Virus record (IMG/VR): IMGVR_UViG_3300042885_000984
Location: 1 to 22,576 of that record
Length of the DNA stretch: 22,576 nucleotides
Reading direction: 5' to 3' (one strand)
Source of the DNA: a virus
A program made the position numbers and the translations under genes. A model generated the notes under the pieces. That model was not told the DNA's origin. It ran no database searches and saw only the letters and a list, made by a program, of their open reading frames with translations. How positions within the stretch are numbered: the first letter of the stretch is position 1; each line of letters begins with the position of its first letter. Positions 3,741 through 22,576 of this stretch are shown piece by piece.

Positions 3741-3752
3741 TATTTATTTAAA
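3741..3752 (+). promoter_or_regulatory. Late-promoter-like motif before first adhesin gene
   Basis: TATTTATTTAAA starts directly after the terminase stop codon and ends 8 bases before the ATG at 3761. It shares the TATTTAT core with motifs near 14967, 16891, 18385, 19428 and 19494. It is a weaker match because the second half diverges from TATTTATAAATA. The role as a promoter is inferred from placement and similarity. Confidence 0.35.
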
Positions 3753-6700: not shown

Positions 6701-6949
6701 GGAAATTGGAATATATCGGGAGTAACCAATTTCACTGATTTTATGTTTGCAAAAACACCGATTACATTCTCAACAATAAATTTAGATTCTATTTATAATG
6801 GATGGCAAACCAAAACACCGCAAACCGGATTAACAATTAATTTTGGTTCTGCAAAATACACATTAGCGAGTCAACCGGGTAAAGATATACTAACAGGTTC
6901 AACTATGAGCGGTGGATATGGTTGGACAATAACAGATGGGGGGATATAA
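3761..6949 (+). CDS. Modular adhesin/tail-fibre-like protein: Cys module, propeller, PKD, 11 DUF285 repeats
   Basis: This 1062-residue protein is probably a virion surface or receptor-binding protein. In order it has a unique N-terminus (1-48) and a Thr-Pro spacer holding two short CDF(S/T)Y modules (89-93, 109-113). A longer TPTQT spacer (119-178) follows, then a Cys-rich module starting YFQDCC (185-254) and another spacer (254-306). Residues 308-575 form a propeller-like region with recurrent F.PDG..L and SLSTPWDV strands. A PKD-like domain follows (607-665, with IDWGDG and HTY), then 11 BspA/DUF285 repeats of about 25 residues (WNVSGVTSMS.MF type, 722-999) and a conserved C-terminal cap (1000-1062, ending GGYGWTITDGGI). 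No signal peptide is evident, which fits assembly onto a virion rather than secretion. It is the only long gene of the block without the N-terminal NY.G..ADITF module. Confidence 0.85.
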   Translation: MGFDSRKKSGNIIGGSRLNVIGQGIYNVKIIPPGFTKRLPAYADAGGNPPSQTPSNTPTQTPTLSITPSNTPTPTYTPTPTQTATPLYCDFSYYVNAITPTPTSTSLACDFTYEVELFTNTPTPTPTPTPTQTITQTPTQTETPTQTPTQTETPTQTPTPTQTETPTQTPTQTPTSSPLPPTVEYFQDCCDSLTVYKVGGVSTPIIVGNTYYINTDGFSGCGTAVSGPPYNSQSLIISVTSYSNCVLCEVDNPCPTPTPTPTMTVTPTNTQTPTVTQTPTVTQTPTNTPTNTQTPTNTLTPTPTPTVCIPQMIYSGEKFINIPLHTSASFKPDGTILYIAIHNGSPTDSVCAYSLSTPWDVSTITLPLIGCSIAVPVISGLTPTSVIGHHFSPDGSKLFVVETASKSVLRYILSTSWDVTTSSYSPGDLFTIVGLTPSHIDFTPDGLFMFVTVTGSLLKKYSLTTPWVINTGVVEIQSISNSIVSDFTFQNSGTYLFSIVSGPSIRRQTLSTPYDLTSIVPVLTQTENVSSFISGGNLYSLNFKDGYKGFIGGYYSTGLNGITAFNLTCEYDISGTLILPTPTPTPTQTVTPTNTVTPTPTLPPSFVSVWRTTTPSESITLPYSPSGTYSGTIDWGDGSISANTYANRTHTYSLSGNSTVTIYGTTNGWAFGNTGDILKIREVLKWGPLKISNGAQVFRGCSNLVLTGVTDTIDLTSVNNLIYMFGGCSSLTTINNVNSWNVSGITVMSNMFQSSTFDDDISSWSVSNVTDMNRMFQFGAFNHNINSWNVSGVTSMENMFRQSSFNQPLSGWNVSKVTSTMAGMFDGTLFNQDISMWNVSGVTSMSGMFRYTPFNYSLNNWNVSKVTNMSNMFYGASFNLPLSGWNVSKVTNMNSMFASTSQFNQNINSWNVSGVTDMGSMFYQNAYFNQPLSGWSVSNVRNMSFMFYNSPFNYPIGNWDVLNVTGMTSMFQSSSFNQDIGNWNISGVTNFTDFMFAKTPITFSTINLDSIYNGWQTKTPQTGLTINFGSAKYTLASQPGKDILTGSTMSGGYGWTITDGGI
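4115..4294 (+). repeat. Thr-Pro hexamer-type tract
   Basis: This stretch encodes (TP/TQ)n and is built from ACNCCA/ACNCAA hexamers, with two adjacent identical copies of a segment reading acacaaactgagacgcca. It is a low-complexity spacer between domains and a likely site of replication slippage or recombination. Confidence 0.85.
5924..6757 (+). repeat. DUF285/BspA repeat array, 11 units
   Basis: Eleven units of about 75 bases encode W(N/D/S)VS(G/N/K)VT.M..MF followed by ..FN..(L/I)..W. The family (DUF285, the bacterial surface repeat related to BspA leucine-rich repeats) is usually found on cell-surface proteins and forms an extended solenoid. The count is from direct reading of the WxVS anchors. 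Confidence 0.85.
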
Positions 6950-6952
6950 TAT

Positions 6953-9364
6953 ATGGGAACAATTTTAAAAATATTATCAATAAATTACGACGGACAATTC
7001 GCCGACATTACCTTTTACCCTTGTTCGGGTGGGAGTATTAATATCGGTGAAGTTAACTTACCATATAATTATTATTCGGAAAATTACTACGGAACATATA
7101 ACATTTATTTACTTGATTCGGGTAAAACTTGTTTGTTAAATGTTCCTTGTTTAACACCTACGCCTACTCCAACAACAACAATGACATTAACTCCAACAAA
7201 TACTCCAACACCAACAAACACACCCGCACCAAATTGTGATTTATTAGGTTTAGATATTACAACCCCAACCCCAACTCCAACACCTACAATGACACCAACA
7301 CCAAGTTCTACACCATTATTACCATTTATATCTGTGTGGAGAACAACATCTCCGTCTGAGAGTATAACATTACCTTATTACGGTTTAGATTATTCAGGAA
7401 CCATTGATTGGGGTGATGGAAATTTTTCGGCGAATACATTTGCAAATAGGACACATATTTATACAACTCCTGATGACTATGTAATAACTATTACAGGTAA
7501 AGTTAATGTGTGGTCGTTTTATTATACACCAACAAGTAAACTTAAAATAAGAGAAATAACACAGTGGGGATGTCTTAACATAACTCAACTATCATATAAT
7601 TTTTATGAGTGTTCTAATTTAATATTAACAGGTGTTACTGACACTCTAAATTTATCTCAAGTGACAAATTTAACATATATATTTCGTGGATGTTCGTCTA
7701 TTACAACCATAAATAATATTAATAATTGGGATGTTTCTAACATTACAGGTATGTCAGGAATGTTTGGTCAAAGTAATTTTAACGATAACATTAATAATTG
7801 GGATGTTTCGGGAGTTGAGGATATGAGTTATATGTTCCAAGGAGCAACATCTTTCAACGAACCATTATCTGGTTGGACTGTTTCAGGTGTTACAAATATG
7901 TCGAATATGTTCCAAGGAACAACATCTTTCAACCAACCATTATCAGGTTGGAACGTTTCAAATGTTGCGTCTATGACATATATGTTCCAAAATTCACAAT
8001 TTAATCAAGATATTAATAATTGGGATGTTTCAAGTGTTATTTATATGAATTATATGTTTAACGGCACACCGTTTAATCAACCGTTGTCAGGTTGGAATGT
8101 TTCAAATGTTACAAGTACGTATTATATGTTTGCTAGCACCCCATTCAATCAACCAATCGGAAATTGGGATGTCTCAAAAGTGGTTAATATGGAGGGTATG
8201 TTCCAAAACGCAACATCCTTCAACCAACCAATTAATAATTGGAATGTTTCAGGAGTTACCAATATGACATCAATACTCCAAAGCACTGATTTCAACCTAC
8301 CATTATCCGGATGGAATGTTTCAAATGTCTATAATATGACTTTTATGTTTGCCAATTCACCATTCAATCAACCAATTGGGAATTGGAATGTTTCGGGTGT
8401 TACAAATATGGTAGGTATGTTCCAAGGAGCAACATCGTTCAATCAACCATTATCCGGATGGAATGTAAGTAACGTTAATAGTATGAGGCAAATGTTTAAT
8501 ACTGCTACCGACTTTAACCAACCTATTGGGTCTTGGAATGTTTCGGGGGTTACAGATTTGGGTTATATGTTTTATGCGTCATCATTTGACTATCCATTAT
8601 CTGGGTGGAATGTTTCAAAAGTTACAGATATGACTTATATGTTTGCCAATTCCCCATTCAATCAACCAATCGGAAATTGGGATGTCTCAAAAGTTAAAAA
8701 TATGTCAGGTATGTTTGTCAATACATCATTTGATTATCCGATTGGGAATTGGACTGTTTCAGGGGTAACAAATATGAGTAATATGTTTCAAAACGACCAA
8801 TATTTTAATCAACCATTATCTGGATGGAACGTCTCAAATGTTGTTGATATGACATCTATGTTCCGAAATTCACAATTTAATCAAGATATTAATAATTGGG
8901 ATGTTTCAAGTGTTATTTATATGAATTATATGTTCGCATCTTCCCTATTTAATCAACCATTATCCGGATGGAATGTTTCAAATGTTGGTGATATGAACAA
9001 TATGTTTTATAATTCGGAGTTCAATTACCCTATTGGAAATTGGGATGTATCTAATGTTGTTAATATGAACAATATGTTTAATATTAATACATATTTTAAC
9101 CAAGATATTGGAAATTGGAGTATATCAAATGTAACTAATTTTACTGACTTTATGTTAGGTAAAACACCATTAACATTCTCAACAACAAATTTAGATTCAA
9201 TCTATAGTGGATGGTCAACTAAAAATCCGTATACAGGAAGAACAATAAATTTTGGAAGTGCTAACTACACAATATCCGGAGGACAACCAGGTAAAAATAC
9301 ATTAACGGGTTCAACTATGAGTGGAGGATATGGTTGGACAATAACTGATGGAGGAGGAATTTAA
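6953..9364 (+). CDS. Modular adhesin/tail-fibre-like protein with 20 DUF285 repeats
   Basis: This 803-residue protein starts three bases after the previous stop codon, in tight late-gene spacing. Residues 1-67 are the shared N-terminal module (ILSINYDG, ADITFYPCSGG, INIGEV.LPYNY, YYGTY.IY, ending CLLNVPC). Two Thr-Pro spacers (67-92, 103-122) flank a short segment containing NCDLLGLDI. A PKD-like domain with IDWGDG (151-156) and THIY lies at about 125-182. A Cys-bearing lead-in, then 20 DUF285 repeats, fill about 240-735. The C-terminal cap (730-803, ending MSGGYGWTITDGGGI) closely matches that of the upstream gene. It therefore looks like a paralogue of that gene with the Cys-rich and propeller modules missing and the repeat array longer. 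A receptor-binding or adhesion role is inferred from the repeat family and genome context. Confidence 0.85.
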   Translation: MGTILKILSINYDGQFADITFYPCSGGSINIGEVNLPYNYYSENYYGTYNIYLLDSGKTCLLNVPCLTPTPTPTTTMTLTPTNTPTPTNTPAPNCDLLGLDITTPTPTPTPTMTPTPSSTPLLPFISVWRTTSPSESITLPYYGLDYSGTIDWGDGNFSANTFANRTHIYTTPDDYVITITGKVNVWSFYYTPTSKLKIREITQWGCLNITQLSYNFYECSNLILTGVTDTLNLSQVTNLTYIFRGCSSITTINNINNWDVSNITGMSGMFGQSNFNDNINNWDVSGVEDMSYMFQGATSFNEPLSGWTVSGVTNMSNMFQGTTSFNQPLSGWNVSNVASMTYMFQNSQFNQDINNWDVSSVIYMNYMFNGTPFNQPLSGWNVSNVTSTYYMFASTPFNQPIGNWDVSKVVNMEGMFQNATSFNQPINNWNVSGVTNMTSILQSTDFNLPLSGWNVSNVYNMTFMFANSPFNQPIGNWNVSGVTNMVGMFQGATSFNQPLSGWNVSNVNSMRQMFNTATDFNQPIGSWNVSGVTDLGYMFYASSFDYPLSGWNVSKVTDMTYMFANSPFNQPIGNWDVSKVKNMSGMFVNTSFDYPIGNWTVSGVTNMSNMFQNDQYFNQPLSGWNVSNVVDMTSMFRNSQFNQDINNWDVSSVIYMNYMFASSLFNQPLSGWNVSNVGDMNNMFYNSEFNYPIGNWDVSNVVNMNNMFNINTYFNQDIGNWSISNVTNFTDFMLGKTPLTFSTTNLDSIYSGWSTKNPYTGRTINFGSANYTISGGQPGKNTLTGSTMSGGYGWTITDGGGI
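7990..8058 (+). repeat. Exact 69-base direct repeat, copy 1
   Basis: It is identical base for base to 8866-8934, 876 bases (292 codons, in frame) downstream. Neighbouring units differ by many synonymous changes, so complete identity over 69 bases points to recent gene conversion or duplication. Confidence 0.9.
8866..8934 (+). repeat. Exact 69-base direct repeat, copy 2
   Basis: Second copy of the segment at 7990-8058. Recombination between the copies would remove 292 codons in frame, so the array can change length without breaking the gene. Confidence 0.9.
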
Positions 9365-9368
9365 TATT

Positions 9369-11582
9369 ATGAAAACTTTTGAAATATTTACAACAAATTA
9401 CGACGGGTATATCGGAGATATAAGTTATTCCGCATATACCGGAGGAACTATTAGTTTAGGTTCACAGTTATTACCATACGATTATAATACAGATTATTAT
9501 TATGGAACATATACCGTATACATACCTTTTTATAATAAAACCTGTATTTTAGATTATCCGCCACCTTCTTGGGATTTAATCGGTGATACGTTAATATTGT
9601 TCATTTCAAGTTGGAAAACCGACAATGAAGGTTTTACTAACACTAATCAAATTGGTATTGTGTTAGACCCATCAGGAACTTTTAATTTTGTAATTGATTG
9701 GGGTGATGGAAATACAGACACAATAACATCATATAGTCAACCTGAGCTTATACATACTTACAATGTTATAGGAACATATACTATACGTATGTTTGGAGTA
9801 ATTGACGGGTTTAATATAGGAAATTATGCTGGTGATTATGGTAAAATTTTAAGTGTTCAACAGTGGGGTGATGTAAAATTAATTGATGGTGGATATCAAT
9901 TTTATTATTGTTTTAATTTAGATTTATCTACCGTAATCGATACTTTAGACACTTCAAATCTGACTAATATCGACGCTATGTTTGCAGAATGTTATAGTTT
10001 AACATCTGTAAATAATATACAATCGTGGGACATTTCTAATATAACAAGTTTATCTTATTTATTCTCCGGATGTATATTATTTAATCAAAACTTAAATAAT
10101 TGGGATATTTCGGGAATTACAAATATAAGTGGAATGTTTTATTTGACAAGTTATAATCAACCATTATCCGGGTGGAATGTTTCAAATGTTCAATACACAA
10201 ATTATATGTTTAGTAATTCTCAATTTAATCAACCATTATCCGGATGGGATGTTTCAAATGTTGTTGATATGAGTAATATGTTTGAGTCTTGTCCATTTAA
10301 CCAACCAATCAATAATTGGAATGTTTCAGGTGTTACAAATATGGGTTATATGTTTAATGGGTCATCATTTAATCAACCATTATCCGGATGGGATGTTTCA
10401 AATGTTACAGATATGAGTTATATGTTCTATAACAACTCAATATTTAATCAACCTATTGAAAATTGGAATGTTTCAAATGTTACAAATATGAGTGGTATGT
10501 TCTATTACAACTCAGCATTTAACCATCCAATTGGGAATTGGAATGTTTCGGGTGTTACCAATATGAGTTATATGTTCTATTACAACTCAACATTTAACCA
10601 TCCAATTGGGGATTGGAATGTTTCGGGTGTTACCAATATGTCGGGTATGTTCTCTAATAATCAAATATTTAATCAACCATTATCCGGGTGGAACGTCTCA
10701 AATGTTACCAATATGTCGAATATGTTCTATTCCAACTCAACATTTAATCAACCATTATCAAGTTGGACTGTTAGTAATGTAACAAATATGTCAGGTATGT
10801 TTTATAATAATAGAATATTTAACCAACAAATTGATAATTGGGATGTATCTAAAGTTACAAATATGAGTTATATGTTTTTTAACAGTTTATTTGACCAACC
10901 ATTATCCGGATGGAATGTTTCTAAAGTTACTCTTATGTTTTCCATGTTTAATAATTCTCAATTTAATCAAAATATAAATAATTGGAATGTTTCTGGAGTT
11001 ACAAATATGAGTGATATGTTCTCTAATAATCAAATATTTAATCAACCATTATCCGGGTGGAATGTTTCAAAGGTTACAAGTATGAGTAATATGTTTGCCA
11101 CTTCATCATTCAATCAACCAATTAATAATTGGAATGTGTCGGGTGTCACAGATATGGGTGCGATGTTCTATCAATCTCAATTTAATCAACCATTATCCGG
11201 GTGGAATGTTTCAAATGTTATTAGTTTGTTTAATATGTTTAGGGGTTCAAAATTTAATCAACCTATTGGAAATTGGGATATTTCTAAAGTATCTAATGTT
11301 GTGTATATGTTTTATGAAAACCAATATTTTAAACAAAATTTAGGGAATTGGAACATATCAGGTGTTACAAATTTTTATTATTTTATGGGAACTAAAAACC
11401 CTATTACTTTTTTCACATACAATTTAGATAGTATTTATAATGGGTGGGTAACAAAAAACCCACAAATAGGGATACAGATTAATTTTGGTAGTGCAAAATA
11501 CACATCAGCTGGTTTGGCGGCAAGGACAACCCTTGTAACAACTTATTTTTGGTCAATTAGCGACGGAGGAATGTTAACTTAA
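9369..11582 (+). CDS. Modular adhesin/tail-fibre-like protein with 19 DUF285 repeats, no Thr-Pro spacer
   Basis: I place the start at the ATG at 9369, giving 737 residues. This aligns its MKTFEIFTTNYDG with the starts of its paralogues, and the in-frame ATG at 9348 would overlap the previous gene and add seven residues. The shared N-terminal module covers 1-65 (NYDG, GDISYSAYTGG, YYYGTYTVYI). It is followed directly by PPPSW instead of a Thr-Pro spacer. A PKD-like domain has VIDWGDG (108-114) and IHTY. Nineteen DUF285 repeats fill about 203-673. The C-terminal cap keeps NLDSIYNGW and INFGSAKYT but ends FWSISDGGMLT, having lost the GGYGW motif of its relatives. It is probably a third version of the same surface protein; binding target unknown. 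Confidence 0.85.
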   Translation: MKTFEIFTTNYDGYIGDISYSAYTGGTISLGSQLLPYDYNTDYYYGTYTVYIPFYNKTCILDYPPPSWDLIGDTLILFISSWKTDNEGFTNTNQIGIVLDPSGTFNFVIDWGDGNTDTITSYSQPELIHTYNVIGTYTIRMFGVIDGFNIGNYAGDYGKILSVQQWGDVKLIDGGYQFYYCFNLDLSTVIDTLDTSNLTNIDAMFAECYSLTSVNNIQSWDISNITSLSYLFSGCILFNQNLNNWDISGITNISGMFYLTSYNQPLSGWNVSNVQYTNYMFSNSQFNQPLSGWDVSNVVDMSNMFESCPFNQPINNWNVSGVTNMGYMFNGSSFNQPLSGWDVSNVTDMSYMFYNNSIFNQPIENWNVSNVTNMSGMFYYNSAFNHPIGNWNVSGVTNMSYMFYYNSTFNHPIGDWNVSGVTNMSGMFSNNQIFNQPLSGWNVSNVTNMSNMFYSNSTFNQPLSSWTVSNVTNMSGMFYNNRIFNQQIDNWDVSKVTNMSYMFFNSLFDQPLSGWNVSKVTLMFSMFNNSQFNQNINNWNVSGVTNMSDMFSNNQIFNQPLSGWNVSKVTSMSNMFATSSFNQPINNWNVSGVTDMGAMFYQSQFNQPLSGWNVSNVISLFNMFRGSKFNQPIGNWDISKVSNVVYMFYENQYFKQNLGNWNISGVTNFYYFMGTKNPITFFTYNLDSIYNGWVTKNPQIGIQINFGSAKYTSAGLAARTTLVTTYFWSISDGGMLT
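9975..11387 (+). repeat. DUF285/BspA repeat array, 19 units
   Basis: Nineteen WxVS-anchored units of about 24-25 residues, counted by eye. Several adjacent units are almost identical at DNA level, which marks this array as recently expanded. Confidence 0.85.
10496..10640 (+). repeat. Near-perfect 75-base tandem duplication
   Basis: Bases 10496-10565 and 10571-10640 match over 70 bases with two mismatches (cagcat/caacat and gggaattgg/ggggattgg). The 75-base period equals exactly one DUF285 unit, so this is a recent single-unit duplication. Confidence 0.9.
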
Positions 11583-11585
11583 TTT

Positions 11586-11795
11586 ATGGAATATATATAT
11601 AGAATATCGACAAATAATTATACCGGATATACCGCCGATATAACTTTTAATCCATCAACAGGTGGAACAATTAATATTGGTACGGTTACATTACCGTATG
11701 ATTACCCTACAGATTATCCGTATGGTGATTATTATATATACATACCGGCAACAGGTGTATCGGGGTCTTTGAATAATCCCCCACCAACACCTTAA
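11586..11795 (+). CDS. Stand-alone N-terminal adhesin module
   Basis: This 69-residue protein consists only of the N-terminal module found in the genes at 6953, 9369 and 11816. It has NYTG, ADITFNPSTGG, INIGTVTLPYDY, YGDYYIYI and ends NNPPPTP, exactly where the Thr-Pro spacer begins in the longer proteins. It starts three bases after the preceding stop and has a proper TAA. Either it is a free capping or adaptor subunit, or it is what remains of a longer fibre gene whose distal part was deleted. The intact reading frame and conserved core favour a working protein but do not prove it. No Shine-Dalgarno sequence is present. Confidence 0.75.
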   Translation: MEYIYRISTNNYTGYTADITFNPSTGGTINIGTVTLPYDYPTDYPYGDYYIYIPATGVSGSLNNPPPTP

Positions 11796-11815: not shown

Positions 11816-14800
11816 ATGAGTACAACTTTAGAAATATTAACTGCGAATTATAACGGACAATTAGCCGATATAACCTTTTTCCCTTGTTCGGGGGGGGTTA
11901 TAAATATTGGTGAAGTTACATTACCGTATAATTACGAATCCGAAAATTATTATGGAACTTACATTATTTACGTAATGTATTACGATGAAACTTGCTCGTT
12001 GGATATTCCTTGTATATCATTAACACCGACAAATACACCGACAAATACACCGACACCTACTATTACAGATACTCCAACTCAAACACCAACTCAAACTAAT
12101 ACTGTTACACCAACTAATACTGGAACACCAGCACAAACCCCAACACAAACGACAACGCAGACACAAACACAAACACCTTCCAATACAGCTACACCTACTA
12201 ACACTATCACTCCAACTCAAACTCCAACTAAGACTCATACTCCCACACCAACAAATCGCCCTACAACAACACCAACAATGACACCAACAAATACTCCTAC
12301 ACAAACAAATACTCAAACAAATACGCCAACAAATACGCAAACGCAAACACAAACGCAAACTCAAACCACTACACAAACTCCGACTAACACTCCAACACAA
12401 ACACAAACTCAAACACAAACACCGTCACCATTACCTCCAACAATTGGGTATTTTGAAGATTGTTGTTACCCATCTATAATATATAAAGTGGGTGGAATAA
12501 TATATCCTGTTTTTATTGATAACTTCTATTATATAGAGACTACCGGATATAGTGGTTGTGTTAAAGCAATAAATCCTACGTCATTTAACAGTCAATATGA
12601 AATTATTAGTTTAACTTCATATGTGAGTTGCCTTATTTGTCAATTAGACCACGAATGTATTTTACCTACACCTACACCAACTCCAACTCAAACTGTGACT
12701 CCAACGGTAACGCCAACAGTAACTCCAACAATTTCAACAACACCAACAAATACTCCTACACAAACACAAACACAAACTTCAACACCAACACAAACACCTA
12801 CCAATACACCAACAAACACTCAAACACAAACTCAAACACAAACACAAACTCAAACTTCAACACCGACACAAACACCTACTCAAACTCCGACTAACACTCC
12901 AACCAAAACTCAAACTCCAACAACAACAACGACATTAACCGCAACACCAACTCAGACTCAAACTCCAACAAACACTCAAACACCAACAAAAACTCAAACA
13001 CCAACACCAACAAAAACAATGACTCAAACACCTACTAATACTCAAACACAAACACCAACCAAAACTCAAACACAGACGCCTACAAACACACCAGTTTGTT
13101 CAGCACCTCAAATGTTAGGTGTTACATTGTCATCAGGTTCAATTTTATCTGTTTCGATTATTCCGGGACCAAATTGTAGTGGTATTTTTATGATATATTC
13201 TTATGATAATATAAACTTTAATTCTGCTGTGGCAACTCCAAGTAACTGTACATCACCGTTTACTTTTGACTCTCTTACTACAACAGGAAATGTTTATGTA
13301 AAAGTGGGTCAATTATGTACATCAGGTGGTATTAGCGCATATTCTGAAGTTTTCCCATATTTCTTCCCAACCCCAACTCCGACACCAACACCAACAAATA
13401 CACAAACGCCTACTAAAACTCCAACCAACACTCCAACTAAAACTCAAACCCCAACAACAACAACAACATTAACTGCAACTCCGACTCAGACTCAGACGCC
13501 AACTAAAACTCCTACTAACACTCCAACCAAAACACAAACACAAACTCCAACTAAAACTCAAACTCCAACAACAACAACAACATTAACTGCAACTCCGACG
13601 CAAACACAAACGCCTACTAAAACTCCTACACAAACACCTACTCGAACAAACACTCCAACGCCAACAACATCGTGTGGTGTTACATTAATTTCTACCACAT
13701 ATGTTTCAGGAACCACTTGGAATTATAATTTCACAACAGCAGGTTCTTGTGGAACACTTTTACCGGAATATTCGTCTGATAATATAACTTGGACTTTGGG
13801 TGGTGCAGGTGGTTGTACTTCACCTAGGTCGGCAATAACCGGTATTAATAGTGGAACAATATACTTTAGAATGACATTATTTTGTTCGTCTCTTACGGGA
13901 GTTTCAAATGTTATTACTTATGTGTTCCCATCACCAACACCTACACCTACAAGAACTCAAACACCAACACCAACAAAAACACCTACACCTACACCGACTG
14001 AAACACCACCTGGAGTAACTTGTGTATGTTATGAATTATATTGGTCTCCACCAGGTGGTCCTTTCTTTGGTTCAACAACTTTTGATTATATTGATTGTGA
14101 AGGGTTCCCTGCAAGTTCCTTTGCTAACAATATGGGTGATTCACCGAATATTTGTGCTCAAGAAAACACTATTTCATTTGGCGGTGGTGACAATTCAGGT
14201 GGTTGGCTTCCATCAATATATAATTGTTGCGCAACAAATATTACATTAGGATATAGAGTGTCAAATGCTGTATGTTCGTTACCTGGTTGGGCGTTAGTTA
14301 ATCAATGTATAAATCGTTCCGCAATTTTAGGTTTATGTGACGCAACCGAATTATATGATGATGATATATCCGGTAATTGTACCTTCGCATTTGCAGCTGC
14401 GGGTTATTATAAAACCACTGATAACTTTAGTAGAAGATATTGGGATGGAACCGCATTTACGGGTGCTTGTTTTTCGTGTGGTTGTTTAGTTGTTAATACA
14501 GTAATAACATTATCTGATGGTTCAACTAAATTAATACAAGATGTTCAAGTTAACGACATACTTAAATCTATTGATGTTTCAGGAATGCCACAACCATCAA
14601 ACGAATGGTACTCTTGGAGTAGTGACACTTTAAATTATGTAGAATCAACCTCTACAGTAATTAATTTTACAATATATGAATTTGATTCGGTTATTAATAT
14701 TAATAACGATAAATTAATTGCGACTGATTCTCATAACCACGTTGTTAAACAAAATGGTGTTTGGTATATCAGAACAACATCTGATTTAAATGTTGGTGAT

Positions 14801-14938
14801 GTATTATTAGATATTGACAATACTGAATTTGAAATCACATCATTAGTGACAATTACAGAATCAACAACAGTTTATAACGTTGATGTGAATAATAGTAATT
14901 TATATTTTGCGAATAATGTCTTAACTCACAATAAGTAA
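11816..14938 (+). CDS. Modular adhesin with Thr-Pro spacers, Cys and Ig/FN3-like modules and C-terminal Hint domain
   Basis: This 1040-residue protein starts with the shared N-terminal module (1-66). Long Thr-Pro/Thr-Gln spacers follow at 69-206, 284-427, 519-618 and 705-730. Between them lie a Cys-rich module (YFEDCC, 212-283) also found in the gene at 3761, and two Ig/FN3-like modules of about 90 residues (428-516 and 620-703). Both have a YS.DN(I)(N/T) strand, a C(T)SP turn and a final Y.FP before the next spacer. A Cys-rich segment (733-885) of unknown type includes NCC and several single Cys. The C-terminus (890-1040) is a Hint domain: Cys890 in CLVVNTVITLSDGS, TDSH (970-973), and the ending YFANNVLTHNK with His1038-Asn1039. 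There are no DUF285 repeats. It is probably a virion surface protein that processes or cross-links itself. Confidence 0.85.
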   Translation: MSTTLEILTANYNGQLADITFFPCSGGVINIGEVTLPYNYESENYYGTYIIYVMYYDETCSLDIPCISLTPTNTPTNTPTPTITDTPTQTPTQTNTVTPTNTGTPAQTPTQTTTQTQTQTPSNTATPTNTITPTQTPTKTHTPTPTNRPTTTPTMTPTNTPTQTNTQTNTPTNTQTQTQTQTQTTTQTPTNTPTQTQTQTQTPSPLPPTIGYFEDCCYPSIIYKVGGIIYPVFIDNFYYIETTGYSGCVKAINPTSFNSQYEIISLTSYVSCLICQLDHECILPTPTPTPTQTVTPTVTPTVTPTISTTPTNTPTQTQTQTSTPTQTPTNTPTNTQTQTQTQTQTQTSTPTQTPTQTPTNTPTKTQTPTTTTTLTATPTQTQTPTNTQTPTKTQTPTPTKTMTQTPTNTQTQTPTKTQTQTPTNTPVCSAPQMLGVTLSSGSILSVSIIPGPNCSGIFMIYSYDNINFNSAVATPSNCTSPFTFDSLTTTGNVYVKVGQLCTSGGISAYSEVFPYFFPTPTPTPTPTNTQTPTKTPTNTPTKTQTPTTTTTLTATPTQTQTPTKTPTNTPTKTQTQTPTKTQTPTTTTTLTATPTQTQTPTKTPTQTPTRTNTPTPTTSCGVTLISTTYVSGTTWNYNFTTAGSCGTLLPEYSSDNITWTLGGAGGCTSPRSAITGINSGTIYFRMTLFCSSLTGVSNVITYVFPSPTPTPTRTQTPTPTKTPTPTPTETPPGVTCVCYELYWSPPGGPFFGSTTFDYIDCEGFPASSFANNMGDSPNICAQENTISFGGGDNSGGWLPSIYNCCATNITLGYRVSNAVCSLPGWALVNQCINRSAILGLCDATELYDDDISGNCTFAFAAAGYYKTTDNFSRRYWDGTAFTGACFSCGCLVVNTVITLSDGSTKLIQDVQVNDILKSIDVSGMPQPSNEWYSWSSDTLNYVESTSTVINFTIYEFDSVININNDKLIATDSHNHVVKQNGVWYIRTTSDLNVGDVLLDIDNTEFEITSLVTITESTTVYNVDVNNSNLYFANNVLTHNK
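12020..12433 (+). repeat. Thr-Pro/Thr-Gln tract 1 of last adhesin gene
   Basis: About 138 codons of ACN-CCN/ACN-CAA/ACN-AAY dipeptides encode a stiff, low-complexity spacer between the N-terminal and Cys-rich modules. Synonymous third bases vary, so it is a degenerate rather than a pure microsatellite. Confidence 0.85.
12665..13096 (+). repeat. Thr-Pro/Thr-Gln tract 2
   Basis: About 144 codons of the same dipeptide type. It includes a TKTQTPTTTTTLTATPTQTQTPT segment that recurs twice in tract 3, showing copying of spacer blocks within the gene. Confidence 0.8.
13367..13669 (+). repeat. Thr-Pro/Thr-Gln tract 3 with duplicated block
   Basis: About 100 codons of spacer between the two Ig/FN3-like modules. 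The bases coding TQTPTTTTTLTATPTQTQTP appear twice here (near 13443 and 13557) and once in tract 2, so spacer blocks have been duplicated. Confidence 0.8.
14483..14935 (+). other. Hint (intein/hedgehog-type) autoprocessing domain coding segment
   Basis: These 151 codons form the C-terminal domain of the adhesin at 11816. Block A is CLVVNTVITLSDGS through VQVNDIL, with Cys as candidate nucleophile. Block B is KLIATDSHNHVV with the TxxH pattern. Blocks F and G are VYNVDVNNSNLYFANNVLTHN. The length fits a mini-intein or Hint fold without a homing endonuclease. Only a single Lys follows the Asn, so there is no C-extein to ligate and protein splicing in the usual sense is not expected. N-terminal thioester chemistry or Asn cyclisation remains possible. 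Confidence 0.8.
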
Positions 14939-14966: not shown

Positions 14967-14978
14967 TATTTATATAAG
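14967..14978 (+). promoter_or_regulatory. Late-promoter-like motif before portal gene
   Basis: TATTTATATAAG lies in the 64-base gap between the adhesin block and the portal gene, ending 24 bases before the portal ATG. It matches the TATTTATAAATA motif at 9 of 12 positions. The gap is the first sizeable one after the adhesin genes, so a new transcript is likely to start here. Confidence 0.45.
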
Positions 14979-15002: not shown

Positions 15003-16889
15003 ATGGAAAATAATGAAAATAATGATTTAACGGTTTGGCAAAGGTTATCAAGAGCCTTTGGACCAAACGCGTTATTAAATCAAGACTACCCAACATATAA
15101 GTTAGATAAGAAAGAGTTGTTAAAGACAACATCACAAGCGGAATATGAAAGAGAAAAATTACAAGCTCAACAAACATATTACCTATCTAACCAATGGACT
15201 AAGATTGAAAGTAATCTATACACTCAAGCAGTTTATTATGAACCAACTCGTTTGGCTTCATTTTACGATTATGAATCTATGGAATACACCCCTGAGATAT
15301 CAGCGGCATTAGACATCTATGGTGAAGAATCAACAACTGTTGATGAGAATGGATATATGTTACAAATTTATTCTGAATCAAAAAGAATAAAATCTATACT
15401 AGCCGATTTATTCAATAACGTATTAGACGTTAATACGAATTTAACTATGTGGACAAGAAATACTTGTAAGTATGGTGATAACTTTGTTTATTTAAAATTA
15501 GATTCAGATAAAGGTATTGTTGGTTGTATGCAATTACCAAACATTGAAATAGAACGTTTGGAAAGAGGTATGGCAGCAAAATCTGCAACTATAGATGAAC
15601 CTGCAGAACACAAAGGATTAAGATTTAAGTGGAAGGCAAAAGATATGGAGTTTAACTCTTGGGAAGTTGCCCACTTCCGTTTATTAGGTGACGATAGAAA
15701 ACTTCCATACGGAACGTCAATGTTAGAAAAAGCAAGACGTATTTGGAAACAATTATTATTATCGGAAGATGCGATGTTAATTTATAGAACTTCAAGAGCA
15801 CCGGAAAGACGTGTGTTCAAAGTATTCGTTGGTAATATGGATGATAAAGATGTTGAGGCTTACGTACAACGTGTTGCAAACAAATTTAAACGTGACCAAG
15901 TTGTTGATGCTAAAACAGGTAATGTCGATATGAGATTCAACCAAATGGCTGTTGACCAAGATTACTTTATTCCTGTTAGAGACCCAGCGGCGGCATCACC
16001 AATTGATACGTTACCGGGAGCAACAAACTTATCTGAAATTGCCGATATAGAATATATCCAAAAGAAATTATTAACCGCTCTTCGTGTTCCTAAAGCATTT
16101 TTAGGATTTGAAGAAACTGCCGGTGATGGTAAGAATTTATCATTACAGGATATTCGTTTTGCAAGAACAATCAATAAGATTCAAAAATCAATGATTGCCG
16201 AATTAAATAAAATTGCAATCATTCATTTATTCTTATTAGGGTTTGAAGATGAGTTATCTAACTTTACGTTAGGACTAACCAATCCATCATCCCAAGCAGA
16301 TTTATTAAAGAATGACCTTTGGAAAGAAAAAATTGCATTATACCAACAAGCCGTTGCGGCAATTGCGGGTATTGCTCCGGTATCTGTATCGTGGGCTAAG
16401 AAACATATTTTAGGATTCTCTGATGAGGAAATCAAACTTGATTTACAACAACAAAGAATTGAGATGGCTGTCGGAGCTGAATTAACAAATACGGCAACTA
16501 TCATAACACATACAGGTATCTTCGATAATATCGATAAATTATATGGTAACCCTGCATCCGGAGCAACTGCCGGTGGTGCGGCACCATCATCCCCACCACC
16601 ACCGGGAGGTGGAGGAGGTTTCGGCGGAGGTGGAGACTTAGGTGGAGGAATGGAAGATTTAGGTGGACCTGAACCAGGACCTGAACCGGGTGGACCTGAA
16701 CCGGGTGGAGCCCCTGAGGCGGCAGCTCCCGAAGCAGAAGTAACTCCTGAATCATTTAATAGAGATAATTTAAAAATATTGGTAGAAAGAAGTAATATGA
16801 CAGAAGATGATTCATACATTGATTTATCCAAAGGTGGAAACTCTTTAGGAGAAATTGAAGCTCAATTAGGTAAACTTCTAAAAGATTAG
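15003..16889 (+). CDS. 20: Portal vertex protein, gp20-like
   Basis: This is the dodecameric portal through which DNA enters and leaves the head and on which the prohead starts to assemble. At 628 residues it is longer than T4 gp20 (524). The core aligns closely with the T4 protein: IYRTSRAPERRVFKVFVGN (260-278), VDAKTGNV (301-308), IDTLPGATNLSEI (334-346) and the following YIQKKLLTALRVP (351-363). The extra length is a C-terminal tail. Residues 519-580 are Gly/Pro/Ala/Glu-rich (PPPPGGGGGFGGGG, repeated GGPEPG), then a short helical end follows (585-628). The ATG at 15003 is preceded by an A/T-rich leader with no Shine-Dalgarno sequence. The stop codon is TAG, so TAG is used as a normal stop in this genome. 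Confidence 0.95.
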   Translation: MENNENNDLTVWQRLSRAFGPNALLNQDYPTYKLDKKELLKTTSQAEYEREKLQAQQTYYLSNQWTKIESNLYTQAVYYEPTRLASFYDYESMEYTPEISAALDIYGEESTTVDENGYMLQIYSESKRIKSILADLFNNVLDVNTNLTMWTRNTCKYGDNFVYLKLDSDKGIVGCMQLPNIEIERLERGMAAKSATIDEPAEHKGLRFKWKAKDMEFNSWEVAHFRLLGDDRKLPYGTSMLEKARRIWKQLLLSEDAMLIYRTSRAPERRVFKVFVGNMDDKDVEAYVQRVANKFKRDQVVDAKTGNVDMRFNQMAVDQDYFIPVRDPAAASPIDTLPGATNLSEIADIEYIQKKLLTALRVPKAFLGFEETAGDGKNLSLQDIRFARTINKIQKSMIAELNKIAIIHLFLLGFEDELSNFTLGLTNPSSQADLLKNDLWKEKIALYQQAVAAIAGIAPVSVSWAKKHILGFSDEEIKLDLQQQRIEMAVGAELTNTATIITHTGIFDNIDKLYGNPASGATAGGAAPSSPPPPGGGGGFGGGGDLGGGMEDLGGPEPGPEPGGPEPGGAPEAAAPEAEVTPESFNRDNLKILVERSNMTEDDSYIDLSKGGNSLGEIEAQLGKLLKD

Positions 16890-16890
16890 A

Positions 16891-16902
16891 TATTTATAAA
16901 TA
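16891..16902 (+). promoter_or_regulatory. Palindromic late-promoter-like motif TATTTATAAATA
   Basis: This perfect 12-base palindrome contains the T4 late-promoter octamer TATAAATA (16895-16902). It ends 9 bases before the ATG at 16912. The same 15 bases, TATTTATAAATAAAA, recur at 18385. If it acts like a T4 late promoter, transcription would start almost at the start codon, giving a very short leader. Confidence 0.6.
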
Positions 16903-16911
16903 AAAAAACTT

Positions 16912-17628
16912 ATGAACTTCGGTATATTAAAAACAAAAATAGAAAGAGTGTTGTTAGAATCATACGCTAACGACACATTTAAAGACGAAATAAAAAATTT
17001 CAAAAAATATGTTTTAGAAAACAAAAACATAAGTAAATTATTTTATTTATACGATGAATTAAATTCTCCAAAAGCATTAAGTGAATCTTACGCCAGAGAG
17101 TTTATTAACGAAAGTATTAAAATGTATGAGAACACAATCAATAAAATCAAGCAATCTGATTTAAATAAAATAAAATCTTGGGTTGGTAATAAACAGATAG
17201 AGAATCAATATGAGACTATCGATACGTTGTTTTCTTCAGATATATTAACGATTGAATCTAAAATTAAATGTAGAAACATTCTGTCAGAATCTCTTAGAAA
17301 ATTACCGGTGGTGAAAACAGAAGGGATTGATTTACCGTTAACAACAATGGTAAGTGTTGCAAACAAAACTATTAAAAGTTATATTGATGGTTTAACTGAA
17401 TCTGACAAAAAAGAATTAATGTCTTTATTGTCTGAAGATGATTCAACATTGAATGAAAAATACGTTACACTTAAAGAAGGTGTAGTTACGAAACTAACGG
17501 AAATGAAGAATGCTAGCACTGATTCAACAATGCAAATAAGAATTGAGGATACTATCTCAAAAGTAATTTCTGAAAAATACGACAAACTTACGTACTTCAA
17601 ACTTAAAAACCTTAAAGAAAATCTTTAA
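16912..17628 (+). CDS. Helical hypothetical protein between portal and protease
   Basis: This 238-residue, Lys/Glu-rich protein is predicted by eye to be almost wholly helical, with no transmembrane segment or Cys cluster. I do not recognise it. In T4 the small prohead core proteins gp67 and gp68 lie between portal and protease, so a prohead core or assembly role is possible, but I see no sequence match to support it. It has its own late-promoter-like motif 9 bases upstream of the ATG. Its TAA overlaps the end of the convergent bS21 gene by four bases. Confidence 0.8.
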   Translation: MNFGILKTKIERVLLESYANDTFKDEIKNFKKYVLENKNISKLFYLYDELNSPKALSESYAREFINESIKMYENTINKIKQSDLNKIKSWVGNKQIENQYETIDTLFSSDILTIESKIKCRNILSESLRKLPVVKTEGIDLPLTTMVSVANKTIKSYIDGLTESDKKELMSLLSEDDSTLNEKYVTLKEGVVTKLTEMKNASTDSTMQIRIEDTISKVISEKYDKLTYFKLKNLKENL

Positions 17629-17819
17629 TTATCGTCTGATTTAAATTTTTTCTGAACATACTTAGCTTTTGAAAGACCATCACGTTTAATTACTGATGGT
17701 TTTTTAAATTCTTTTCGTTTTGATAATTCAGAGCTTTGACGGGTTTTAATTACTTTACTTTTATAGAGTTTTAGAGCTTTCTCAATCGTAATGTGATTAT
17801 TTAATTTTACTATTAGCAT
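17625..17819 (-). CDS. rpsU: Phage-encoded ribosomal protein bS21
   Basis: This 64-residue basic protein matches bS21 of the small ribosomal subunit. It has MLIV at the start, IEKALKLYKSKVIKT (12-26), a basic middle (SKRKEF), KPSVIKRDGLSKAKYVQ (40-56) and a charged tail. The start MLI(I/V), the length and the KPSV segment are those of Bacteroidota bS21. Phage bS21 genes are known from large phages found by metagenomics. They are thought to exchange into host ribosomes and favour phage mRNA. In flavobacterial ribosomes bS21 helps bury the anti-Shine-Dalgarno sequence. This is the only minus-strand gene here, converging on the preceding gene with a 4-base overlap. Upstream lies a strong GGAGGG, 16 bases before this ATG and 7 bases before an ATG-TAG pair, which is unusual in this window. 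Confidence 0.88.
   Translation of the reverse strand: MLIVKLNNHITIEKALKLYKSKVIKTRQSSELSKRKEFKKPSVIKRDGLSKAKYVQKKFKSDDN
17676..17705 (+). terminator. Possible plus-strand terminator inside antisense bS21 gene
   Basis: ACCATCA (17676-17682) pairs perfectly with TGATGGT (17694-17700) across an 11-base loop, and a T run follows on the plus strand only. It lies about 50 bases past the stop of the gene at 16912, where a terminator would be expected. The stem is only 7 bp, and the sequence also encodes the conserved KPSV part of bS21, so chance is possible. Confidence 0.4.
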
Positions 17820-17822
17820 ATA

Positions 17823-17841
17823 CTACATATATCTCCCTCCT
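17823..17841 (-). promoter_or_regulatory. Shine-Dalgarno sequence and start-stop pair upstream of bS21
   Basis: Read on the minus strand, TAGGAGGGAG is followed after 7 bases by ATG (17828-17826) and TAG (17825-17823). One more codon (TAT) then leads to the bS21 ATG (17819-17817), all in the same frame. GGAGG is ideally spaced for the ATG-TAG pair and far (16 bases) from the bS21 start. No other gene in the window has such a strong Shine-Dalgarno match. Confidence 0.65.
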
Positions 17842-17852
17842 ACAAAAAAGTT

Positions 17853-17881
17853 TTGACATTACCCATAAAAACACCTATTAT
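17853..17881 (+). promoter_or_regulatory. Sigma-70-like promoter before gene at 17914
   Basis: TTGACA (17853-17858) and TATTAT (17876-17881) are separated by exactly 17 bases. The upstream TTTG (17852-17855) with TATTATTT about 20 bases on also loosely fits the Bacteroidota pattern TTTG/TAnnTTTG. This is the only clear two-box promoter I see. Confidence 0.5.
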
Positions 17882-17913: not shown

Positions 17914-18384
17914 ATGAAAAAGGGAAAAACTTCTCTACTACACGGGTTCAAAACAGCGAAGATTGTTTATGGAACGGTAGACTCAATCAAACTTAAATCA
18001 CTTTACTTAAACATCCAAACTTGGGTTGAACCAATATACGAATGTGATAATTGGACAAGAACAGTTCTTAACCTAAGTAGGAGTATTAAACACTCAATCT
18101 ACGAGTCAATAAACAAAGATATATTCAACGACAAATTTATTGTAGACTTAGATTTAAGGTCCAGCGGACTCAATCTAAACAAAAAATCGTTTATGAACCT
18201 TGAAATAAATTTTTATTTAATACAAGAAGATTTGGATTTCAAATGTAACGAAATAAAAGAATCATTACAACAAATAACAAAACAAATTTTTAAAGATAAT
18301 TTTTTAGATAATGAAAATTTTAACTTTTATCTAACCAAAAACAGTAAAATCACAGAAGAATTGTTACAAACCGAGAATGTTTAA
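17914..18384 (+). CDS. Hypothetical protein upstream of prohead protease
   Basis: This 156-residue protein is not recognised. It is mixed alpha/beta by eye, with VEPIYECDNWTRTVLNLSRSI in the first half and FIVDLDLRSSGLNLNKKSFMNLEINFYL around residues 77-104, which reads like paired beta strands. I use the ATG at 17914. An ATG at 17904 lies in another frame and gives only a 30-residue peptide ending at a TAA. No transmembrane segment is seen. It lies head-to-head with bS21 and 23 bases before the protease gene. Position suggests a late structural or assembly protein. Confidence 0.75.
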   Translation: MKKGKTSLLHGFKTAKIVYGTVDSIKLKSLYLNIQTWVEPIYECDNWTRTVLNLSRSIKHSIYESINKDIFNDKFIVDLDLRSSGLNLNKKSFMNLEINFYLIQEDLDFKCNEIKESLQQITKQIFKDNFLDNENFNFYLTKNSKITEELLQTENV

Positions 18385-18407: not shown

Positions 18408-19133
18408 ATGAATTTAAGAATATTACAACCAAGTGAATCAGGGAAAGGTATATTAGTTGAATACGATGCTGGGTATATTAACCCAAATGATAATCGTAAC
18501 GAAACATTAATTAGAGAATCTAGCGAAACTCTTGACCACACTAAACCAATTGAGTTTTATGCCGTATTACAAAAATATGATACCCCTAATAGAAATGGTA
18601 GATTATATCCTGAACGTATATTAAAAAGAGAGGCGGAGAATTATAAAAAAATGATTAAAAAGGGAACAGCCCTATCCGAGTTAAATCACCCGGAATCATC
18701 TTTAATCGATTTAGATAGAGTTTCTCACGCAATCACCGAAGTATGGTGGGAAGGTAATGTCCTAATGGGTAAAATAAAACTACTTACATCACCGGGATAT
18801 CACGAAAGTGGTATTTGTTCAACCAAAGGTGACTTAGCAGCTAACTACCTAAGACAAGGAGTTACATTAGGTATCTCATCAAGAGGTGTAGGTTCCCTTA
18901 AAAAGATTGGTGAACAAAATGAAGTTCAAGACGATTTTGAATTAATCTGTTTTGATTTAGTATCATCACCATCAACCCCGGGAGCGTATCTATTCTTAAA
19001 TAAAGAGGATAAACAACTATACGATGAGAACTTAGAAGAAGAGAAAAAAATGAGTGTTGAGAGACACGTTGGTGATTCCGGAAATAAATCGCTTGACTTA
19101 ATGAAAAAATTAAACGATTATTTGGGTTACTAA
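18408..19133 (+). CDS. 21: Prohead core protease, gp21-like
   Basis: This serine protease lies inside the prohead and, during maturation, cleaves scaffold, core and capsid proteins at (L/I)xE|(A/G) sites before DNA packaging. The 241-residue protein has the T4 gp21 pattern: a strand with NRNGRLYPERIL (61-72), ELNHPES with candidate catalytic His94 (91-97), VTLGISSRGVGSL with candidate nucleophile Ser157 or Ser158 (152-164), and the late FDLVSSPSTPGA segment (182-193). The C-terminal 45 residues are charged and probably trimmed or flexible. The fold is the herpesvirus-assemblin type. A TATTTATAAATA motif stands just upstream. The scaffold and capsid genes downstream encode its expected substrates. 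Confidence 0.93.
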   Translation: MNLRILQPSESGKGILVEYDAGYINPNDNRNETLIRESSETLDHTKPIEFYAVLQKYDTPNRNGRLYPERILKREAENYKKMIKKGTALSELNHPESSLIDLDRVSHAITEVWWEGNVLMGKIKLLTSPGYHESGICSTKGDLAANYLRQGVTLGISSRGVGSLKKIGEQNEVQDDFELICFDLVSSPSTPGAYLFLNKEDKQLYDENLEEEKKMSVERHVGDSGNKSLDLMKKLNDYLGY

Positions 19134-19147
19134 TAAAAAAAAACAAA

Positions 19148-19357
19148 ATGGAAGAAAAGTATTTTATCGCAAAAGTTACCTTGGACTCAGTTGATGAGGC
19201 ATCAGGTAAGATTAAAAAATTAAGAGAAGAAAAATTAGTAAGTGGTTACAACCCTACTGATGTTGAGGCGAAAGTTACCAAAGTTTTTGAACATTATACA
19301 ATGGAGTGGAGAATTACCGCTATTGTAGAAAGTAAAATTGATGAAGTAATTGAGTAG
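19148..19357 (+). CDS. Small DUF4494-like protein
   Basis: This 69-residue protein (YFIAKVTLDS, KIKKLREEKLVSGYNPTDVEAKVTKV, EWRITAIVESKIDEVIE) resembles the core of DUF4494, a small protein family I know mainly from Bacteroidota. The likeness is in the Y-K-V start, the K/E-rich EEKLVS strand followed by a T.VEAKV helix, and the final I..I..SKI(D/E)E strand. Function is unknown. It sits 14 bases after the protease and is followed by a strong terminator, so it ends that transcription unit. The family assignment is from memory of the pattern, not a search. Confidence 0.65.
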   Translation: MEEKYFIAKVTLDSVDEASGKIKKLREEKLVSGYNPTDVEAKVTKVFEHYTMEWRITAIVESKIDEVIE

Positions 19358-19422: not shown

Positions 19423-19505
19423 GGAGATATTTATCAATGTATAAAAACCTAACTCAATTTAAGTAAATTTTAAACTTTTTTTGAATTAGGAGATATTTAT
19501 ATATT
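19423..19505 (+). promoter_or_regulatory. Scaffold-capsid leader with duplicated late-type motif
   Basis: GGAGATATTTAT occurs twice, at 19423-19434 and 19489-19500. Each copy contains the TATTTAT core (19428 and 19494), continuing as TATTTATCAATG and TATTTATATATT. Between them CCTAACTCAA (19448-19457) and TTGAATTAGG (19481-19490) form an imperfect 10-base inverted repeat with one mismatch. The second motif ends 19 bases before the scaffold ATG. Highly expressed capsid genes often have more than one promoter, so a tandem late promoter is plausible. Confidence 0.5.
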
Positions 19506-21068: not shown

Positions 21069-22576
21069 ATGGGAGCATTATTAGAATCAGGATTAGTTGG
21101 TAACATCGGGTTAAAACACCTTAAAGTTATCAAAGAAGACACAATCAACAAATGGGATAAATTAGGATTCCTAGAAGGTCTTAAAGGACACATGAGAGAA
21201 AACGTAGCTCAGTTATATGAGAACCAAGCGTCTTTCTTAATAAACGAAGCTACAGGTGAAGGTTCAAACGGTTCATTCGAAACGGTTGTATTCCCTATCG
21301 TAAGAAGAGTATTCTCTAAATTACTTGCGAATGAAATCGTATCAGTACAAGCTATGAACTTACCAATCGGTAAATTGTTCTTCTTCGTACCTAAAATTCA
21401 AGGTTACCAATCAGGTCAAGAAACTATCTTAGGAACTCAATTAGGTGGTGGTACTCACTACGGACCAATTGGTGCGGCTGATGGACAAACTGCGGCTGAT
21501 GGTCAATCAGGAGCTGGTTACACAGGAGCAAACGCATTCAAGAAAAATCTTTATGATTTATTCTATGAAGGAAACGAAGGTCAATTAGACCCTCCAGGAT
21601 TGTTTGACTACTCTAAAGGACAATGGTCGGCAGTTACTAAACCAACAACAGTTATGGTTTGGTCAAATGGTAGTTTAGTTGTTGCTGACGCAACTGCATT
21701 AGCTAACCAATTCAATGGAAAAAACATTAGAAAAGTAATCGTAGCATTATCAGGATTCACAACTGCTGGTACAGGTAAATTAATCGGACCAGACGGTAAT
21801 GAAGTTGATACTGAAACTTTCTTATCTGATTTAAGAATCTACAGTGATTCTACAACTGCATGGACTTCAACAACATCACCTTGTAGTGTTGTAAGTGGGT
21901 CTACCGGAATAAACTCATTATTGTTTAGAGTTGTTACTCAACAATATGGTGAAGGTATCGTTTCAGGATTAAACGGAAGAGGAACTACATCATTTGCAAC
22001 TACAGGTAATAACGGTACTTACAATGATACTTGTTCTCCTGCAGGAATCATCTACTTAGAAGTTGATTTATCTTGTCCAACTTGTCCTTCTTGTGGTGAC
22101 ACATTAGACGGTTATACAGGAACAACTATCGGAGTATTACCATCAACTGGGTTTACTGCTGTTTACAGACGTTACGCTGATATGGAATTTGAAGATAAAA
22201 TCGGTGAGGTTTCTTTCGAATTAGATTCAGTTACTGTATCTGTTACAGAAAGAAAATTAAGAGCACAATGGTCTCCTGAGTTAGCTCAAGACGTTGCAGC
22301 TTTCCACAACATCGATGCTGAGGCTGAATTAACAGCTTTATTATCTGAACAAGTTGCGGCTGAAATCGACCGTGAAATCTTAAGAGATTTACGTAAAGGT
22401 GCGGCATGGAACTTACGTTGGGATTACAATGGTTGGAGAAGAATCTCTTCAACAACAAACTATACACAAAAAGATTGGAACCAAACTTTGATTACTGCAA
22501 TTAACCAATTGTCAGCACAAATCCACAAATCTACTTTAAGAGGTGGAGCTAACTGGATTGTAGTATCTTCTGAGGT
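21069..22576 (+). CDS. 23: Major capsid protein, gp23-like (3' end outside window)
   Basis: This is the main shell protein, with 502 complete codons in the window, no stop, and a frame that stays open to the edge. The N-terminus (MGALLESGLVGNIG) leads to a helical arm and ENQASFLINE|ATGEGSNG at residues 51-68. This lines up with the T4 gp23 cleavage region SFLTE|A and gives a mature chain from Ala61. FPIVRRVFSKLLANEIVSVQAMN.P.G (74-101) and ERKLRAQWSPELAQDVAAFHNIDAEAEL (about 398-425), followed by AAEIDREIL, match the gp23 core. An insertion around 330-352 carries CPTCPSCG (Cys336, 339, 342), which T4 gp23 lacks as far as I recall. The ATG follows an A-rich leader 32 bases after the scaffold stop. 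Codons here include more C-ending ones than in the adhesin block, as expected for high expression. Confidence 0.95.
   Translation, partial: MGALLESGLVGNIGLKHLKVIKEDTINKWDKLGFLEGLKGHMRENVAQLYENQASFLINEATGEGSNGSFETVVFPIVRRVFSKLLANEIVSVQAMNLPIGKLFFFVPKIQGYQSGQETILGTQLGGGTHYGPIGAADGQTAADGQSGAGYTGANAFKKNLYDLFYEGNEGQLDPPGLFDYSKGQWSAVTKPTTVMVWSNGSLVVADATALANQFNGKNIRKVIVALSGFTTAGTGKLIGPDGNEVDTETFLSDLRIYSDSTTAWTSTTSPCSVVSGSTGINSLLFRVVTQQYGEGIVSGLNGRGTTSFATTGNNGTYNDTCSPAGIIYLEVDLSCPTCPSCGDTLDGYTGTTIGVLPSTGFTAVYRRYADMEFEDKIGEVSFELDSVTVSVTERKLRAQWSPELAQDVAAFHNIDAEAELTALLSEQVAAEIDREILRDLRKGAAWNLRWDYNGWRRISSTTNYTQKDWNQTLITAINQLSAQIHKSTLRGGANWIVVSSE

Follow-up and report, generated by a model that had tools for sequence, protein, structure and literature searches.

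A bS21 gene lies reversed in a conserved place among the head genes of this phage, and no Shine-Dalgarno (SD) sequence is conserved in its leader. From comparison of the leaders we judge, with a probability of about 0.6, that the phage gene has been taken off the SD-dependent feedback of its host and is set by phage transcription signals; because the host start signal seems not to have been kept, the virus probably makes bS21 on its own schedule. That phage bS21 has mostly departed from the host feedback is a better reading than the kept host control proposed in the first-pass annotation of this DNA. A strong SD is, in Flavobacteriales, typically confined to the bS21 gene, where it serves as a sensor of bS21-free ribosomes, and this autoregulation has been suggested as a possible counter-defence of the host (McNutt et al. 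2023; PMC9976891); phage leaders are not treated in the sections of that paper on which we draw.

The bS21 gene and its locus

The stretch of DNA analysed here (the window) comes from IMG/VR, where it forms a virus record of 22,576 bases. It carries terminase, portal, prohead protease and gp23-type capsid genes, a head module of T4 type, in which bS21 lies reversed between portal and prohead protease:

1971–3740, plus strand: large terminase
15003–16889, plus strand: portal protein, T4-type
16912–17628, plus strand: convergent conserved neighbour ORF
17625–17819, minus strand: bS21 gene, 64 aa, Bacteroidota type (profile and alignment)
17914–18384, plus strand: divergent conserved neighbour ORF
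18408–19133, plus strand: prohead protease, T4-type
21069–22574, plus strand: major capsid protein, gp23 type, running off the window

The gene is a real Bacteroidota-type bS21 on a phage. The 64-residue minus-strand homologue with an MLIV start and a KPSV motif that had been noticed at first pass is ORF 17625–17819, its identity is borne out by the Pfam S21 profile (PF01165, 30.4 bits against a cut-off of 27, residues 4–56 on profile positions 2–54 of 55), and its Bacteroidota character by an ungapped alignment to residues 1–57 of Flavobacterium johnsoniae bS21 (7jil_z; E 5.4e-8) in which Tyr54 is kept. Tyr54 is present in at least 90 per cent of 14 phage-contig rows, and the alignment, the level at which 16S contacts were checked, retains it together with the invariant bS21 positions. 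An AlphaFold model (pLDDT 86, pTM 0.44) places helices at 12–36 and 41–63; a PDB structure search with this model gave no match at E 0.001, and chains of ribosomes, of E. coli among others, are included in the seven matches at E up to 10. The window's bS21 (row L002) falls, in a tree of 63 rows, within a phage-only group of 26 rows (96/82), and the phage rows as a whole need six label changes in this tree, which has few columns and many unresolved forks. Matches at E 1e-3 were found in 6 of 50,697 INPHARED records.

With Tyr54 kept, the phage protein is most likely built into host ribosomes, where it would hold the anti-SD tail out of reach. It is very unlikely, in our view, that it acts off the ribosome as a decoy or RNA-binding regulator, with its leader as a unique site for a phage regulator. 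The full leader motif does occur at most once per phage contig (one copy in seven of eight contigs, none in the 308-kb relative G002), which suits such a role, but the retained Tyr54 and invariant positions speak against it, as does the finding of Mizuno et al. (2019; cited in PMC9976891) that the HTVC008M bS21 is taken up into ribosomes of E. coli. The same counts led us to discard the full leader motif as a genome-wide motif.

Phages of Bacteroidota with a reversed bS21 in the head-gene region were described by Chen et al. (2022; PMC9723584), who proposed late ribosome replacement for the phage protein. As far as that account was available to us, the window agrees with it in the reversed bS21 within a region of terminase, portal, prohead protease and capsid genes, in the Bacteroidota-type protein with an aromatic residue 54, and in the conserved hypothetical neighbours; ORF 17914–18384 is possibly their bS21_CN. 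Since the place of the gene is the same, both the gene and the late-ribosome idea are already in print, and what is new here is the leader comparison and the TATTTAT motif. The main text of that paper contains neither 'promoter' nor 'start codon', and its three instances of 'Shine-Dalgarno' are in the introduction and the reference list; among titles and abstract openings on phage bS21 and on late or leaderless promoters of Bacteroidetes phages we found none on phage bS21 leaders. The available portions of Chen et al. (2022), which make no mention of whether the reads were stranded, also have bS21 transcribed together with an opposite-strand neighbour, a point against control of bS21 by phage signals of its own. 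In the window the last 4 nt of bS21 are shared, tail to tail, with the end of ORF 16912 (17625–17628), so unstranded RNA data could not tell a bS21 mRNA from opposite-strand read-through.

Several other genes of the window are worth recording. Three long adjoining genes (3761–6949, 6953–9364 and 9348–11582) consist of DUF285 repeats (MFxxxxxFNxPLSxWNVSxV), two of them with Thr-Pro linkers, and are likely to encode surface or fibre proteins. A 1040-aa protein with long TPTQT repeats is encoded at 11816–14938; by eye a self-processing domain of Hint/intein type might be seen at its end (CGCLVVNTVITLSDGSTKLIQDVQVNDIL...NVLTHNK), but Pfam gave no match at E 0.01. The 69-aa gene at 19148–19357 matches only the second half of DUF4494 (profile 72–137 of 139).

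The SD-like run in the window leader

The run that had drawn attention to this gene is indeed there, and it is followed closely by a second ATG:

17833–17842, minus strand: SD-like run TAGGAGGGAG, which varies among relatives
17826–17828, minus strand: upstream ATG with an in-frame TAG next (ATG TAG TAT ATG)

Its GGAGG ends 16 nt before the bS21 ATG, and the upstream ATG follows 7 nt after GGAGG. Pairing energies were computed as ViennaRNA duplexes with a 13-nt anti-SD tail, as found in two of two Flavobacterium genomes, and the window leader reaches −12.5 kcal/mol, in a best register whose distance from the start exceeds that in host rpsU by only 2 nt. This could be a working SD kept from the host, through which bS21-free ribosomes would favour the phage gene, as first proposed; we regard this as unlikely, and the evidence on each side is taken up as it arises.

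It had also been claimed that no other gene of the window starts behind such a sequence. This is right only in part: the gene at 11586 has GGAGG likewise 16 nt before its ATG (11565–11569), with an energy of −9.5, and the gene at 6953 has gatggggggatataatat directly before its ATG, with −12.0 beside the −12.5 of bS21 (both energies computed for these genes in G001, a relative of 272 kb), and in each case the SD-like stretch lies within or beside the preceding coding sequence. GGAGG occurs 18 times in the window against 15.5 expected. A rank of second among 330 ORFs of G001 by SD pairing favours a working SD, but another gene there equals the bS21 energy, and energies of −13.0 and −12.5 are found in mock windows. 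Unusual as the run is for a single gene, it is therefore within the range that 330 genes give. In G002, moreover, the bS21 leader pairs at −6.3 and stands outside the top 12 of 377. Counts of GGAGG in SD windows and mock windows were 2 and 2 of 314 in one phage genome and 1 and 4 of 361 in another; since GGAGG is no commoner than in the mock, these two phages are SD-less like their hosts.

Leaders of related phages

A first scan kept the best 80 of 564 relatives as close loci, and these, with three further scans and four phage records (four of the six INPHARED matches), made up 224 loci, among which the same contig sometimes appears twice. A bS21 profile match was present in 221, which gave 96 unique leader-plus-protein pairs; the three loci without a match were dropped, and L326, L327 and L342 were left out of counts for their weak profile scores. 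The reversed bS21 has an opposite-strand homologue of ORF 16912, of ORF 17914 or of both beside it in 199 of 218 loci, and the leaders can therefore be compared position by position. Twenty-seven close leaders were chosen by hand from 38 leader groups, the 11 omitted groups being more divergent and without the purine run.

Among these 27 leaders the positions on either side of the SD-like slot are fixed (2.00 bits each at −24 to −22 and at −13 to −6) and the slot itself is not (0.78–1.77 bits at −21 to −15); within 43 nt of the start only −4 (0.63 bits) is as variable, and −46 to −44, also variable, lies inside the spacer of a divergent promoter described below. The slot is purine-rich (R at least 0.89 at −21 to −14), as a working SD would be, but an exact GGAGG stands in only 8 of 27, pairing ranges from −12.5 to −2.9 kcal/mol, and the run differs between near-identical bS21 genes. 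In outgroup leaders that share the window's type the slot is T-rich or resembles AAGAATAA, without an SD-like run, nor was such a run found in the 40 syntenic leaders outside the window's type, which is marked by GATATAT. The claim that the phage copy has kept the host SD control fails on this variation and on these absences, and the run behaves as a purine stretch specific to one subclade.

A further possibility is that the run drives a start-stop element, in which ribosomes would start at the ATG at 17828, stop at TAG and re-start at the bS21 ATG at 17819, throttling bS21 output. The 7-nt distance from GGAGG to the upstream ATG is a good spacing, and a stop directly follows that ATG in 9 of the 27 close leaders. 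In the other 18, however, TAT or TTA takes its place and an extended protein would result, and SD and stop are uncoupled (AGGAGG stands with TAT or TTA in L057, L061, L062, L064 and L074); with the immediate stop in 9 of 27, the upstream ATG is not a conserved start, and we hold throttling of this kind to be highly improbable. In two relatives TAG is an ordinary stop, used by 29 of 314 ORFs in one and 28 of 362 in the other, by which its recoding as an amino acid was ruled out.

None of the 73 unique syntenic leaders pairs at −13 or stronger. Thirteen reach −8, all of them among the 33 of GATATAT type and none among the 40 outside it, while under 5 per cent of G001 ORFs reach this level, so the window's subclade may still use an SD. 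This enrichment is the best remaining argument for a working SD; it concerns one clade, the more divergent members of which lack it. Also on that side, A at −6 occurs in 0 and A at −3 in 1 of the 33 GATATAT-type leaders, which means that the usual signals of SD-less Bacteroidota genes are missing as well.

Host rpsU leaders and phage exceptions

Pairing in host leaders is of another order. All 80 Flavobacterium-type rpsU leaders lie between −19.0 and −20.9 kcal/mol, and host values agree across programs (median −20.9 here, mode −20 in McNutt et al. 2023); GGAGG stands 10 nt from the start in 65 of the 80 and 9 nt in one, and 14 have no exact GGAGG. As a broader control that avoids so near-identical a sample, 80 genomes were drawn from the phylum of a Flavobacterium genome, and PF01165 was found in 80 of 80. 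Of the 79 cellular leaders read, 44 pair at −13 or stronger and 58 at −8 or stronger, GTG and TTG gene starts being approximate. The −13 level that marks hosts is reached by a single one of 86 unique phage leaders, and not by the window's, which again tells against kept SD control. With the leader of L112/L264 left out as near-identical to that of cellular locus L526, a Fisher test at this level (44/79 cellular against 1/85 phage) gives p 6e-17, which is only a guide because the leaders are related.

Two observations concern the provenance of single loci. The rpsU genes of L178, L195 and L200, in genomes titled Lentimicrobium, Rhizobium and Chitinophaga, are 89 per cent identical to the Flavobacterium query, and these assemblies are probably contaminated or misnamed. 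L112/L264 is an IMG/VR 'viral' contig on which both bS21 and leader nearly match L526; it is probably cellular DNA or a prophage flank.

The autoregulated rpsU described by McNutt et al. (2023) belongs to the same protein family and has a run complementary to the anti-SD upstream; as far as their text was available, host genes there pair at −14 to −21 kcal/mol and are usually the single strongest gene. The phage run, by contrast, pairs at −12.5 at best in the syntenic family, is not conserved, and differs from host rpsU in spacing and register. Against their level of pairing stronger than −13, set with a different program, the window at −12.5 falls just short; bS21 is not the clear strongest gene in G001 or G002 (ranks here cover all ORFs, theirs ribosomal protein genes); and conservation of the SD among relatives, a further mark of that autoregulated class, is absent from the phage leaders.

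The one phage leader that resembles the host's belongs to L284 (also L357), a 119-kb contig that is not syntenic with the window and is otherwise SD-less. There AAAAAGGAGG stands 7 nt before ATG, pairs at −13.6 and is the strongest of 125 ORFs, which shows that strong SDs do occur before bS21 in phages, a point for the working SD albeit from another contig type; in L358, a relative, GGAAT takes its place and pairing drops to −6.2, though no other of the 19 in that locus is stronger. A second candidate, the AAAGGAGG before bS21 in the huge phage LR756501 (−11.5), was rejected as a bS21-specific SD since other genes there pair too: 10 of 86 genes in the bS21 stretch fall below −8 (mock 2), the figures for two other stretches being 3 of 43 (mock 2) and 5 of 56 (mock 5), and in G012, which has the same bS21, 10 of 121 do so (mock 3). 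A profile search of the 80 loci listed for AGGAGG before MLII-type starts returned no bS21 among the matches listed.

Candidate transcription signals

Upstream of bS21 three conserved elements can be placed:

17851–17857, minus strand: GTCAAAA, invariant in the 27 close leaders; the plus strand holds TTGAC
17853–17881, plus strand: divergent promoter-like TTGAC-N18-TATTAT for ORF 17914–18384
17820–17833, minus strand: GATATATGTAGTAT, a strongly conserved block adjoining the start; candidate −10 element in leaderless geometry, with two mismatches to the TATTTAT core

TTGAC-N17/18-TAWW is present in 63 of 73 unique syntenic leaders (shuffle mean 0.9). GTCAAAA is invariant because the TTGAC of this divergent promoter lies on its other strand, which explains the conservation better than an element of bS21 itself. 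A host-type promoter, TTG-N19/20-TAnnTTTG, was likewise set aside for bS21: it is enriched genome-wide (12 against 0.3 and 22 against 0.3), but by eye no such pair is seen in the window bS21 leader.

The motif TATTTAT stands 7–45 nt before 79 of 330 ORFs in G001 (12.1 in shuffles) and 90 of 377 in G002 (15.2), and we read it as the −10 element of a phage promoter. It has a sharp one-nucleotide mode at −11 from ATG (20 ORFs in G001, 22 in G002) and broader modes at about −21 to −25; the −11 mode is possibly a class of leaderless phage mRNAs. In ORFs of this leaderless geometry A at −3 is rarer (about 26/61 against 344/538, from rounded fractions; p 0.002). Among 285 stretches upstream of host genes the motif shows no enrichment (7 against 11.4), in contrast to TAnnTTTG (141 of 285 against 12); these stretches come from 80 similar rpsU loci and so are not independent. 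In the window the motif precedes 5 of the 15 genes looked at:

3741–3747, plus strand: TATTTAT, 20 nt before ORF 3761
14967–14973, plus strand: TATTTAT, 36 nt before the portal gene
16891–16897, plus strand: TATTTAT, 21 nt before ORF 16912, candidate phage promoter
18385–18391, plus strand: TATTTAT, 23 nt before the prohead protease gene
19494–19500, plus strand: TATTTAT, 31 nt before ORF 19525

Both strands of the window together hold 25 copies against 15.2 expected, so many copies lie inside genes. As the motif is spread over both phage genomes rather than confined to the structural region, and is absent before terminase and capsid, late timing is not established by it. T4-type late promoters have the sequence TATAAATA. 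The likeness of the candidate promoter to them lies in a −10-type motif before some structural genes and a phage-borne sigma-type gene (of four phage contigs searched, a sigma-70 region 2 gene is on G001, G002 and G014, with no match on the fragment G003); the core here differs in being TATTTAT, and some genes have it in leaderless geometry.

Before bS21 itself TATTTAT occurs in 25 of 86 unique leaders (shuffle mean 4.5), eight of them in leaderless geometry. Of the 40 unique syntenic leaders that are not of the window's type, 24 have it and 16 have no exact copy. The window bS21 has no exact core in its leader but TATATGT, two mismatches away; a model fitted to the motif tolerates hardly any departure from the core and puts this leader at rank 72 of 707 (shuffle p 0.023), so the promoter of the window's clade is not identified by it. 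GATATAT-type leaders have GATATATGTAnTAT at the place that matches TATTTAT, and L325 (AATATTTGTATTAT) looks intermediate between the two, a link that for the window's clade is suggestive only.

Implications for phage bS21

Under host control bS21-free ribosomes translate rpsU through its very strong SD, and it is this feedback that the phage gene would leave; a bS21 set by phage transcription could be made by ordinary ribosomes that have their full share of bS21. The signal would, in many syntenic relatives, be the TATTTAT upstream of the start, and at −11 to −13, where it lies in some, a leaderless mRNA would follow. In the window's clade, if GATATATGTAnTAT is a −10 element, GGAGGGA would lie upstream of the transcript and never be seen by the ribosome, which is the weakest step of the proposal.

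A wider form of this reading we offer more tentatively, at slightly less than even odds: that phages with bS21 have as a rule removed the gene from SD feedback and put it on phage transcription, often on a leaderless mRNA, such that bS21 would be made though ribosomes are full of it, while feedback would continue to act on the host gene only, which the phage protein would thereby shut down, with the L284 side branch having kept or regained an SD. If so, that branch would be a natural control. The leader comparison gives a clear, testable prediction. Whether a phage obeys or evades the host sensor bears on how it can replace host bS21: overproduction would be open to a phage copy that lacks an SD, and such a copy would silence the host gene as well.
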